Part shown: positions 7,681-33,284 of the stretch, piece after piece | Layout of the letters: each line of letters starts with the position of its first letter | How positions within the stretch are numbered: position 1 is the first letter of the stretch | NCBI GenBank assembly: GCA_018664075.1 | Contig: JABJOY010000040.1 | Location: forward strand, 1 to 52,303 | Reading direction: 5' to 3' | DNA length: 52,303 nt | From: Porticoccaceae bacterium | Lineage (GTDB): Bacteria > Pseudomonadota > Gammaproteobacteria > Pseudomonadales > Porticoccaceae | Notes under the pieces: model-generated | What the model saw: the letters and a program-made list of their open reading frames with translations, nothing else | Databases searched by the model: none | Told to the model about the DNA's origin: nothing | Made by a program: the position numbers and the translations under genes

Positions 7681-8100
7681 ATGCAGGCAACAGTGAAATG
7701 GGTAGATGGTGTGATGTTTTTAGGTGAATCCGGCAGTGGTCATTCAGTAGTTATGGATGGAGCGCCAGACCAGGGCGGCAGAAATATGGGGGTGCGCCCA
7801 ATGGAAATGATTTTAGTAGGGCTTGGCGGCTGCGCCTCTTTCGATGTGATGAGCATGCTGCACAAGGGCCGCCAACAGGTCACTGATTGCAGGGCCGAAA
7901 TCGAAGCAGAGCGAGTCGACGCGGTGCCAGCAGTGTTTAGCAAGATACATCTTAATTTTGTTGTAACCGGTGTTAATCTCAAGGAAGCGCAGGTTAAGCG
8001 CGCGGTCGAGTTGTCAGCAGAGAAATACTGTTCCGCCTCTATTATGTTGGAAGATGCTGGTGTTGAGATCAGCCATAGCTATGTGATTGAAGCCGCCTAG
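7681..8100 (+). CDS. OsmC family protein
   Basis: 139-residue OsmC/Ohr fold protein. The family is made up of small thiol-dependent peroxidases and related proteins. One conserved cysteine is seen in GLGGCASFDVMSML and the other in SAEKYCSASIML, as in the YhfA branch of the family. The divergent pairing with vfr is shared with Pseudomonas (PA0653 position). The next gene there, speD, is absent here and is replaced by the LysR/small-RNA region. The precise substrate is unknown. Confidence 0.88.
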   Translation: MQATVKWVDGVMFLGESGSGHSVVMDGAPDQGGRNMGVRPMEMILVGLGGCASFDVMSMLHKGRQQVTDCRAEIEAERVDAVPAVFSKIHLNFVVTGVNLKEAQVKRAVELSAEKYCSASIMLEDAGVEISHSYVIEAA

Positions 8101-8126
8101 TCTGGGGCTGGGGACTAAATTTCAGG

Positions 8127-8181
8127 CAAAAAAAAGGAGCCTTGGCGGGCTCCTAAAAAATTCTTTGAATGAATTACAAAG
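8127..8181 (-). terminator. Double terminator of the predicted small RNA
   Basis: Read on the minus strand, CTTTG/CAAAG with a 9-nt loop is followed by AATTTTTT. Then AGGAGCC/GGCTCCT with loop CGCCAA is followed by eight T. Orientation excludes it as the terminator of plus-strand osmC. Confidence 0.75.
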
Positions 8182-8251
8182 AGGGGTTAGGGGTAAAACA
8201 TGTGAGAACCTGCCCTTGGCAAATCCTCTAAAACTCGTAATGCTGTTTACG
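8128..8251 (-). ncRNA. Predicted small RNA of about 120 nt, paralogue of the peptide-gene transcript
   Basis: Bounded by a well-formed promoter (TTGATT, 17 nt, TACTAT) and a double terminator. No ribosome site or convincing reading frame lies inside. Near the 3' end it has ACCCCTAACCCCTCTT, a C-rich single-stranded segment complementary to Shine-Dalgarno-like sequences, followed by a weak hairpin with a U run and then a strong GC hairpin with an 8-U tail. The same order of elements ends the neighbouring transcript. Existence is inferred from sequence architecture only. Confidence 0.5.
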
Positions 8252-8257
8252 GAGAGC

Positions 8258-8286
8258 ATAGTAAGAATCCGTCACCTATTAATCAA
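8258..8286 (-). promoter_or_regulatory. sigma70 promoter of the predicted small RNA
   Basis: Minus-strand -35 TTGATT (8281-8286), 17-nt spacer, -10 TACTAT (8258-8263). The -35 box starts at the same distance from the palindrome as in the second copy. Confidence 0.55.
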
Positions 8287-8323
8287 ATGCATTATTTGCA
8301 TCATAGTTATGCGTTTTGGTAAT
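8287..8323. repeat. Operator-like repeat, copy 1
   Basis: Palindrome ATGCA-TTATT-TGCAT (8287-8301) followed after 7 nt by ATGCGTTTTGGTAAT. Copy 2 at 8665-8701 is identical at 32 of 37 positions. The palindrome contains T-N11-A, the usual core of LysR binding sites. Confidence 0.7.
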
Positions 8324-8353
8324 ACCTTAAGTTAATCCTGAAAAATCAACGGC

Positions 8354-8406
8354 AAAAAAAACGGGACCTTGGCAGGTCCCGGTAAAAAAATCCTATAGCA
8401 AGGATT
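8354..8406 (-). terminator. Double terminator of the 36-residue peptide gene
   Basis: Minus strand: AATCC/GGATT with an 8-nt loop, then a T run; next CGGGACC/GGTCCCG with loop TGCCAA and eight T. The motif ACCCCTCTT (8407-8415) precedes it, exactly as in the small-RNA copy. Confidence 0.8.
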
Positions 8407-8477
8407 AAGAGGGGTAATACTTTAAAACTACGAATTTGGTACATCTGTAAATAAAAACTCAGTGAATCTGTCGAGTT

Positions 8478-8588
8478 TTACTTCTCAGAAGCCTCGAGTC
8501 CTGGTGCTTCCAACTTGGCGAAACTATCTTTCGCAATTGCAGCACCCGCAAGGCCGGTAAAACCGATCATTAAATATACGAGTGTCAT
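8478..8588 (-). CDS. Small membrane peptide, 36 residues
   Basis: Reading frame MTLVYLMIGFTGLAGAAIA followed by a polar tail (KDSFAKLE, then APGLEASEK). An AAGGAG ribosome site sits 6 nt before the ATG, a consensus-like promoter lies 50 nt upstream and a double terminator downstream, so this is very likely an expressed gene. Residues 3-19 form one hydrophobic, glycine-rich helix; the rest is charged and soluble. I do not recognise a family. It is divergent from the LysR regulator and shares its operator region, so LysR control is likely. The long 3' untranslated region resembles the neighbouring predicted small RNA. Confidence 0.65.
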   Translation of the reverse strand: MTLVYLMIGFTGLAGAAIAKDSFAKLEAPGLEASEK

Positions 8589-8612
8589 TTCTGTCTCCTT
8601 AAGTAAAAGTTA

Positions 8613-8626
8613 AGAGCAACTGCTCT
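8613..8626 (-). promoter_or_regulatory. 5' hairpin in the peptide mRNA leader
   Basis: AGAGCA/TGCTCT with a 2-nt loop, a few bases after the inferred transcription start. It may stabilise the message. Confidence 0.35.
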
Positions 8627-8635
8627 ATGGGTGAC

Positions 8636-8664
8636 AATATAGAGATTCCTGTGACATAATCCAA
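8636..8664 (-). promoter_or_regulatory. sigma70 promoter of the small membrane peptide gene
   Basis: Minus-strand -35 TTGGAT (8659-8664), 17-nt spacer, -10 TATATT (8636-8641). It abuts the palindromic operator. Confidence 0.6.
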
Positions 8665-8701
8665 ATGCATTTTTTGCATCAACAATATGCGTTTTGGTAA
8701 T
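8665..8701. repeat. Operator-like repeat, copy 2, between the peptide gene and the LysR gene
   Basis: Palindrome ATGCA-TTTTT-TGCAT (8665-8679), then ATGCGTTTTGGTAAT (8687-8701) just upstream of the LysR ribosome site. Placement fits autoregulation of the LysR gene and divergent activation of the peptide gene. Confidence 0.7.
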
Positions 8702-8714
8702 GGAGCTAATTTTA

Positions 8715-9701
8715 ATGAATTTACAGAAACTTTCGCGGCTGGATCTCAATCTACTGGTTTCCCTGCAGGCTCTGCTCGAAGAGAAAAGTGTGACCCGTGC
8801 CGCCGAACGGTTGTTTATTACCCAGCCCGCCATGAGTCGTGTACTGCAGCGGCTAAGACATCAGCTTGATGATCCCTTATTTACCCGCACAGGCAATGAG
8901 CTTGTACCAACCCCTAAAGCTCGTGAGTTGCAGGCCCGATTGCCAAGGCTGCTGGATGGCATTTTGGAAATGGTCAGTGAGGGGGAGTTTGATCCTGCAA
9001 CCTATGAGGGTGAGATTAGTATTGCGGTCCCTGAATTTGTAGCGATTTCCCTGATCTCTGAATTAACCAAGGTTGTCACCGAGCATGCCCCAGGTGTGGT
9101 GCTGTCAATTTCCAGTGAGACTGATTCATCTGTGGAAGTTGAGCTAGCTGAGGGTGTACTGGACTTTGCCATTGATATTGAAAAGACCATCACAGAAGAC
9201 ATTAGTATCAGAAGTCTGGCTATTTTTACACCTTCCATCTGGATGCGAGAAGACCATCCCCTGGCAGAAAAAAGCCGCGTTACCTTGGATGAGATCCTGG
9301 AATATCCCTTTGTGCAGTATTATCTGCTGATTGCCAAGCGTGTGAGTGCCCGCACTGATGCACGATTTGATCGGGTTCTTCGGGATATGGGCCGCAAGCG
9401 TAAAAAAGCGCTGGTCACTAATCAGCTGATGACTGCAGTTGAAACTGTGTGTGGCACGGACTGTCTGATGGTAGCGGCAAAATATGGTCTTACCATGGAG
9501 CGCGAAATGTACCGCATTGTGCGCAAGCCCTATCCGGCAGACCTGCCTCACAAAGGAACTATTTCCCTGGTGTTATTGCAGCACAAGCGGACATCCGGCT
9601 CCGGAATTCATCGCTGGCTGTCGGATAAGATTGTCGGTTTGATTCAGGATTGGGAGAAAACGCTTGAGGCCGAGAGCGTTAGGGTCGTCCAGGAACAATA
9701 G
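8715..9701 (+). CDS. LysR family transcriptional regulator
   Basis: 328 residues. The N-terminal winged helix-turn-helix spans residues 6-65 (LDLNLLVSLQALLEEKSVTRA, ITQPAMSRVLQRLR). A periplasmic-binding-like effector domain follows. The start chosen is the ATG giving MNLQKLSRLDL, with GGAG 9 nt upstream; a TTG 21 nt earlier in the same frame lies inside the operator repeat and is less likely. The sequence resembles the NodD/LeuO-type branch, but the effector is unknown. Its position beside two copies of one operator suggests that it governs the peptide gene and the predicted small RNA. It meets coq7 tail to tail. Confidence 0.9.
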   Translation: MNLQKLSRLDLNLLVSLQALLEEKSVTRAAERLFITQPAMSRVLQRLRHQLDDPLFTRTGNELVPTPKARELQARLPRLLDGILEMVSEGEFDPATYEGEISIAVPEFVAISLISELTKVVTEHAPGVVLSISSETDSSVEVELAEGVLDFAIDIEKTITEDISIRSLAIFTPSIWMREDHPLAEKSRVTLDEILEYPFVQYYLLIAKRVSARTDARFDRVLRDMGRKRKKALVTNQLMTAVETVCGTDCLMVAAKYGLTMEREMYRIVRKPYPADLPHKGTISLVLLQHKRTSGSGIHRWLSDKIVGLIQDWEKTLEAESVRVVQEQ

Positions 9702-33087: not shown

Positions 33088-33108
33088 GAATTCAAACCGA
33101 TGTTTGTT

Positions 33109-33278
33109 AAATCCCAGAGTGCCGCTGCCAACGTGGCCTTGAACCGAAGAGTTCAAGGTGGCTATCCTCGCAACAAATCAGGCTTTCCGACGCACGGAAG
33201 TGCACAACATTGTTGACGGAGAACTGCCGGGTATAAATTATCGGCTCAGGGACTTCTTGGCTGGCAAACACCCCAGGA
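33109..33278 (-). ncRNA. ssrS: 6S RNA
   Basis: About 170 nt on the minus strand between zapA and the cyclo-ligase gene, the standard locus. Conserved segments read on that strand are AAGTCCCTGAGCCGATAAT and CACCTTGAACTCTTCGGTTC. The ends pair (CCTGGGGTG with CACTCTGGG, allowing G-U) as in the closing stem of 6S. The RNA imitates an open promoter and binds sigma70 RNA polymerase in stationary phase. Ends are estimated. Confidence 0.92.
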
Positions 33279-33284
33279 AAACCT

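Follow-up and report, generated by a model that had tools for sequence, protein, structure and literature searches.

A LysR-linked locus of SAR92-clade Porticoccaceae with two predicted sibling small RNAs, one of which may also encode a membrane micropeptide

The window, i.e. the whole 52,303-nt stretch of DNA analysed, is contig 90 of a 2.06-Mb assembly (93% complete). Its DNA was assigned to the SAR92 clade of the Porticoccaceae, and among named organisms the closest relatives belong to this clade too, for instance strains HTCC2207, MOLA455 and H231. SAR92 is a clade frequent in the coastal ocean. The locus of interest has the gene order crp (minus strand), osmC/yhfA (plus), unit B (minus), unit A (minus), a LysR-family regulator gene (plus) and coq7 (minus), and at the corresponding place in Pseudomonas we presume speD to stand. 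The LysR gene (8715–9701, plus strand), identified by Pfam, NCBIfam and ortholog searches, encodes 328 residues from the ATG at 8715. Its product carries the LysR helix-turn-helix domain PF00126 (3.1e-18) and the substrate-binding domain PF03466 (3.9e-17), both above cut-off; the best NCBIfam model, BsrA (NF050187), scored 125 of 480 bits, far under its cut-off. When positions 8100–8720 were used as a DNA query against the genome itself, nothing beyond the locus was found.

Units A and B share one architecture, as the first-pass annotation of this DNA had proposed, each consisting of an operator, a promoter, the motif ACCCCUCUU, a small hairpin and a terminator. Comparison and pattern search placed operator 1 at 8665–8701, between the LysR gene and unit A, and operator 2 at 8287–8323, ahead of unit B (both minus strand). 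These 37-bp operators agree at 32 positions, as had been noted, and the agreement is not due to chance: the runner-up in the window agrees at 24 of 37, as does the best of 30 mononucleotide-shuffled windows searched on one strand. A sigma70-like promoter with a 17-nt spacer, also described before, was seen by eye abutting the end of each operator. The predicted promoter of unit A (8636–8664, minus strand) consists of TTGGAT (8664–8659) and TATATT (8641–8636), and that of unit B (8258–8286, minus strand) of TTGATT (8286–8281) and TACTAT (8263–8258). Both are largely kept across 13 aligned genomes, the window genome included, with some variation of the −10 element. A consensus scan named neither promoter and found promoter-like sites at background level (one, on the plus strand, against 1.8 expected).

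Unit A is predicted to yield a transcript of ~276 nt (8354–8629, minus strand; start deduced from the −10 element) that would serve as a peptide mRNA with an sRNA-like 3′ end. The frame for the predicted 36-residue membrane peptide MTLVYLMIGFTGLAGAAIAKDSFAKLEAPGLEASEK runs from 8588 to 8478 (minus strand) and has the good ribosome site attributed to it earlier, AAGGAG (8600–8595), 6 nt ahead of the ATG. Besides the open reading frame and the comparison of loci, the frame is backed by its substitution pattern. The pN/pS ratio in 39 genomes was 0.23; reading the alternative frames gave 1.2 and 3.1 and met a stop in 39/39 and 38/39 sequences. By this measure, the peptide is under coding selection. 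Synonymous change per site was 0.67 in codons 4–13 and 0.80 in the first LysR codons, and only 0.27 in codons 15–21. The core GGT GCT GCA ATT GCG AAA therefore appears to be constrained as nucleic acid, DNA or RNA, as well, and a second signal within the coding frame is likely at these codons. Nucleotides of codons 15–21 (8526–8546, minus strand) are near-invariant in the 39 genomes, and the palindrome GCAATTGC is found with them. None of 20 peptides exceeded a Pfam cut-off: DUF1328 was hit by one of the 20 (E 0.008), and the window peptide had no Pfam match. The NCBIfam model NF010229, listed as ‘hypothetical protein’ and taken by us to represent the DUF1328/YtjA small membrane proteins, scored the window peptide at 13.8 of 52 bits and the best of the 20 members at E 6.5e-4, which is below cut-off. 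No match to the peptide was found in the plasmid collection searched. For a dual-function sRNA, coding selection and a ribosome site are thus in place, and a shared transcript and translation are predicted.

For unit B, a transcript of ~124 nt without the peptide is predicted (8128–8251, minus strand). No peptide frame with a ribosome site was seen in it, in line with the earlier description; a 45-codon open reading frame (8259–8122) starts within the −10 element, and the aligned region is rich in indels. A 5′ hairpin of this transcript, at 8204–8228, is not conserved in sequence. The 3′ ends of the two transcripts are built alike. The class A RNA end (8354–8418, minus strand), delimited by covariance model R2, comprises AUUACCCCUCUUAAUCCU, a small hairpin, a GGGACC/GGUCCC terminator and U8, and the class B RNA end (8128–8191, minus strand), delimited by model R1, comprises the CUAACCCCUCUUUG hairpin, a GGAGCC/GGCUCC terminator and U8. 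The motif ACCCCTCTT, the weak hairpin with a U run and the strong hairpin with U8 were found in both copies, as first described. The loop YGCCAA, originally listed as a further shared element, holds for the window genome and a few neighbours, but other genomes have different loops. Terminator-like sites numbered four, against 0.7 expected. Within the window, the two models each detect the other class (1.5e-7 and 3.2e-5), indicating that the A and B RNA ends are related. Among 104 genomes searched, R2 found matches in 53, including 48 of the 50 from the same genus, and R1 in 65 at E ≤0.01, the weakest of which are likely chance terminators. A match of R2 on contig 18 of genome G000 was rejected as a third copy, being by eye a terminator behind an amtB-like gene. 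Several weak model matches (L225, L226, L227, L235, L236, L237 and L239) likewise looked, on inspection by eye, like ordinary terminators or chance matches, a verdict that leaves aside L222, L232 and L233.

A covariation check, as suggested in the first-pass annotation, demonstrated compensatory changes at both RNA ends, indicating structural constraint. Class A sequences were gathered in alignment A1 by a motif search with one mismatch allowed, and its invariant columns are partly selected because that search defined its members. Because MAFFT had aligned the terminator of class A wrongly in A1, alignments A4 and then A6 were used instead, A6 being fitted to the structure and so biased towards it. 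Across the 61 class A matches (50 distinct), 99.9% of cells were paired, compared with 27–68% after sliding the partner, and 8 of 14 pairs had changed on both sides. The 27 class B sequences gave 99.5% paired cells, 23–69% after sliding, and 6 of 14 pairs changed on both sides. This support sits mostly in the terminator stems of both classes; three of the six pairs of hairpin 1 are invariant in each class. The number of further pair types was not above that in shuffles, 103 (class A) and 459 (class B) of 500 shuffles being as high. The 15-mer ACCCCUCUUAAUCCU, next to a variable loop, is exact in 56 of the 61 R2 matches, which came from a covariance model built on ten motif-search sequences and include one class B copy. 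A CU-rich stretch followed by a hairpin and a U8 terminator is, on its sequence, of the form typical of Hfq-dependent RNAs. At the sequence level, the hallmarks of Hfq-dependent sibling sRNAs are present, namely related RNA ends, a conserved unpaired stretch and a U-rich terminator, and hfq was found in all eight genomes tested.

The module proved to be conserved in close relatives, a point on which the first-pass annotation had staked its reading. The LysR locus occurs in 48 of 50 same-genus genomes, the two without it being 71% and 73% complete, and both operators (≤2 mismatches) lie upstream of LysR in 48/48 loci. Two genomes, G045 and G007, have three class A copies, yet still two operators. 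The peptide core is present in 41 of the 48 loci. A tree was built from 47 LysR proteins, of which SAR92 contributed 33. In it, the seven streamlined SAR92 genomes that lack the peptide group as a single clade (100/100) surrounded by genomes that carry it; over the whole tree the peptide-less state needs three changes, and inside SAR92 one loss. All seven genomes of the clade have retained the operators and the class A RNA end, and six have retained class B; the contig of the seventh ends inside class B. A subclade without the peptide has thus kept operators and RNAs, which suggests that the RNA matters by itself. As a separate observation, a tblastn search of the sequence retrieved upstream of LysR detected no osmC in 14 SAR92 loci (G003, G006, G007, G015, G020, G023, G024, G026, G027, G030, G032, G042, G045 and G049), and there an RNA unit without peptide adjoins LysR.

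The placement of the operators is nearly exclusive. With a pattern built from these same operators, and blind to sites of other shape, 94 places with ≤2 mismatches were found in 48 genomes of the genus (G000–G047). Of these, 92 fall at the LysR locus, as pairs in 46 genomes, and the other two are single off-locus places in two different genomes. The reversed pattern, used as a control, had one place in those 48 genomes. The regulator therefore seems to serve these two promoters specifically. Judged by sequence, hardly any other target with this operator pattern would be available to it, binding itself being predicted.

In other Porticoccaceae, variant units lie upstream of related LysR genes, mostly with a peptide and a C-rich stretch before the terminator. 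Porticoccus sensu stricto has C-rich RNA ends and, by the filter used, no peptide; the remaining variants encode a single peptide or a pair with the pattern ..G(S/G)AIA.(D/E)D... A complete genome from the genus of Porticoccus W117 (G069) contains ten peptide units (L290–L295), four in tandem upstream of LysR and six dispersed. By eye, a similar operator-like stretch precedes each of the four tandem units. The six dispersed units have another promoter region, common to them, and several have similar flanks. Seven of the ten units carry CUACCCCC before the terminator and an eighth the shorter CUACCCUU; two carry neither. In another genus (G062), three copies are found on a second contig. The CU-rich stretch drifts among genera, appearing as CCCCUCUU, CCCCCUGGAAAA and CUCCCUCUAUAU. 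A peptide profile run against 293 genomes from the order at E 0.01 gave 14 matches: nine strong ones, all in the family, and five weak ones (0.003–0.008) that are likely chance. Two C-rich RNA ends in tandem, 231 bp apart and of the form AUUCCCCCUCCUC.. plus a GGCGCC terminator, were also noticed elsewhere in the genome of G057 (L231; contig 78, 4884–5167).

More distant LysR relatives (35–41% identity, many from Halieaceae) stand at another location, next to one predicted divergent short transcript and, by eye, an operator of like form. A 24–26-residue peptide containing IAW is present in 4 of 14 aligned; its kinship with the 36-residue peptide was judged by eye. The RNA end of these relatives carries a quite different conserved stretch. 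In loci L184–L199, which come from assemblies of Halieaceae and of unassigned gammaproteobacteria, a conserved CAUCCAGGUCC and a AACCCGCC/GGCGGG terminator mark the RNA end, which on its sequence is a candidate for a separate sRNA family.

The distribution of the peptide bears on a rival explanation, that the locus is only a duplicated gene for a small membrane protein with its terminator, unit B being a dying copy and the RNA ends plain 3′ untranslated regions. Since the units of several other genera carry the peptide, it appears to be old and the peptide-less copies look derived, and two of the ten G069 units have a peptide without the C-rich stretch, as this explanation would allow. A dying copy is, however, hard to reconcile with a second operator in every one of the 48 loci and with compensatory changes in class B, and one clade has lost the peptide while keeping everything else. 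Conservation of the C-rich stretch, moreover, greatly exceeds that at third positions in most codons of the peptide. We consider it decidedly unlikely that a peptide gene is all there is, and favour a functional pair of sibling RNAs.

How sibling RNAs might act was addressed by searching for targets, for which the evidence was weak. The first-pass annotation had suggested that the C-rich segment pairs with ribosome sites. Away from the locus, the 11-nt complement of this segment occurs at 12 places in 48 genomes, fewer than the 33 of its reversed control, so that at most a short seed of ~8 nt is plausible. The sequence AAGAGGGG lies 2–9 nt ahead of an ATG 26 times, vs 11 for the reversed sequence, in six genomes, a mild excess that ordinary ribosome sites could explain. 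For a TonB-dependent receptor, AAGAGGGG was found at the ribosome site in all three genomes with a close ortholog; these receptors are 91–92% identical, and the site may simply have been inherited. A distant relative of the receptor (42% identity) lacks AAGAGGGG at its ribosome site, and in the window genome no match to the receptor was found at E 1e-30. A repeat match in a gene that we take to be rplV was dropped because it most likely lies inside the coding sequence. Regulation of the peptide by the C-rich stretch of its own locus was also rejected, its pairing being no better than in shuffles in 38 (class A) and 19 (class B) genomes.

The scarcity of complementary 11-mers off the locus speaks for the main rival to base pairing, in which the C-rich RNA is a decoy for an RNA-binding regulator or nuclease, a protein that the siblings would sequester while LysR is active. 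The near-invariant 15-mer includes stem bases that the structure alone does not need, and in some genomes the copy number has risen, as it can for sponge RNAs. We recognised no known protein motif in the RNAs, however, and by eye the loops contain no CsrA-type GGA; the drift of the CU-rich stretch between genera also suits pairing with ribosome sites. A decoy role is, in our judgement, unlikely, and pairing of sibling sRNAs through a short seed is the reading we prefer. A short hydrophobic peptide next to a small RNA, with tandem and dispersed copies in relatives, also calls to mind a type I toxin-antitoxin system, with the peptide as toxin and the second RNA as antitoxin. RNA B, however, lies on the same strand as RNA A and is similar rather than complementary to it, its pairing with the peptide ribosome site was at shuffle level in 19 genomes, and genomes that have lost the peptide still carry RNA B and the operators. 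A toxin-antitoxin system with RNA B as the antitoxin is therefore very improbable, and sibling sRNAs with an optional peptide describe the locus better.

Database searches placed the RNAs in no described family. At gathering score, no Rfam family matched the units; the best model at the locus, Burkholderia ncS54, was far below its cut-off at both copies (19.8 and 17.1 of 43 bits), and RF02278, the model for Burkholderia double-hairpin RNAs, was not among the locus matches up to E 5. At 13 relative loci, the best Rfam matches were suhB/mmgR (28.2 of 41) and anti-hemB (25.9 of 49.5), all subthreshold. The sole over-threshold Rfam match in the window is 6S RNA (RF00013, 102 bits) at 33107–33282, minus strand. 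A LysR-family regulator with a divergently transcribed sRNA is known from OxyR/OxyS, and GcvA belongs to the same regulator family; GcvB and OxyS both have Rfam models, and neither model had a match listed at the window.

The locus nevertheless has clear parallels of known kinds. GcvB is described as transcribed divergently from gcvA and activated by GcvA, which also controls gcvTHP (PMC1557403). The locus resembles that system in the arrangement of a LysR gene with a divergent sRNA gene. It departs from it in that the sibling RNAs number at least two and a peptide is embedded, and in that the operator pattern is almost absent from the rest of the genome. The Burkholderia double-hairpin RNAs and the Neisseria NmsRs, the latter arranged in tandem, are described as homologous short RNAs with two hairpins and unpaired CU-rich stretches predicted to cover ribosome sites (PMC5688073). 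The siblings share this CU-rich form, and the main text on those RNAs makes no mention of LysR (PMC5688073). In Rhodobacter sphaeroides, the very small protein gene ccaF1 is followed in one transcript by the homologous sRNAs CcsR1–4, which are reported to be processed from its 3′ UTR, CcaF1 being a DUF1127 RNA-binding protein (PMC8625941). A tiny protein is linked to sibling sRNAs in both cases (PMC8625941), but the peptide here is hydrophobic and without a Pfam match, and the siblings have predicted promoters of their own. The earlier statement that no system of such form has been described holds for the databases and the literature searched, which covered few subscription journals and yielded no description of a LysR/sibling-RNA/micropeptide system, but not for the parts, given the parallels with GcvA/GcvB, the NmsRs, the Burkholderia RNAs and CcaF1/CcsR1–4. 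What is new is the combination of a LysR regulator with at least two sibling RNAs as its apparent sole targets and an optional membrane micropeptide.

From the GcvA/GcvB arrangement, the CU-rich sibling form and the CcaF1/CcsR1–4 linkage, we propose LysR-switched sibling sRNAs. The LysR protein would bind both near-identical operators and switch two divergent short transcripts, and probably its own gene, on or off. Both transcripts would end in one kind of sRNA module, in which an unpaired CU-rich stretch precedes a small hairpin and the U8 terminator. The siblings would then act in trans with Hfq, the short CU-rich seed pairing with purine-rich ribosome sites and blocking translation. Transcript A would be dual-function, additionally encoding the 36-residue peptide, which would reside in the inner membrane. 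We regard it as probable, well short of certain, that the locus encodes CU-rich sibling sRNAs driven by LysR, probably dependent on Hfq, and with a dual function in one case. The LysR-controlled circuit with a tiny membrane protein and an RNA pair, as first suggested, has gained from conservation, RNA structure, coding selection and operator placement, and its binding and transcription steps stay at the level of prediction. A more far-reaching version can be offered only tentatively, as somewhat doubtful: the entire output of this LysR in SAR92 may be the riboregulator pair; in 44 of the 46 operator-bearing genomes, the operator is confined to this locus. In the same vein, the operator, micro-membrane protein and CU-rich end may together make up a dual-function gene complete in itself, which in related genera gives rise to tandem copies and to a dispersed family, with the core codons of the peptide doubling as an RNA or DNA signal (0.27 vs 0.67 synonymous changes per site).

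The analysis yields two covariance models for RNAs unmatched by Rfam and a micropeptide family unmatched by Pfam, all of which can be checked against existing marine transcriptomes. The locus also offers a natural experiment on dual-function RNAs, in which a streamlined clade dropped the peptide and kept the RNA, and other genera multiplied the peptide-bearing unit. For SAR92 bacteria, the predicted DNA targets of the regulator can be read from sequence alone as two small RNAs, and its response would therefore run through RNA.
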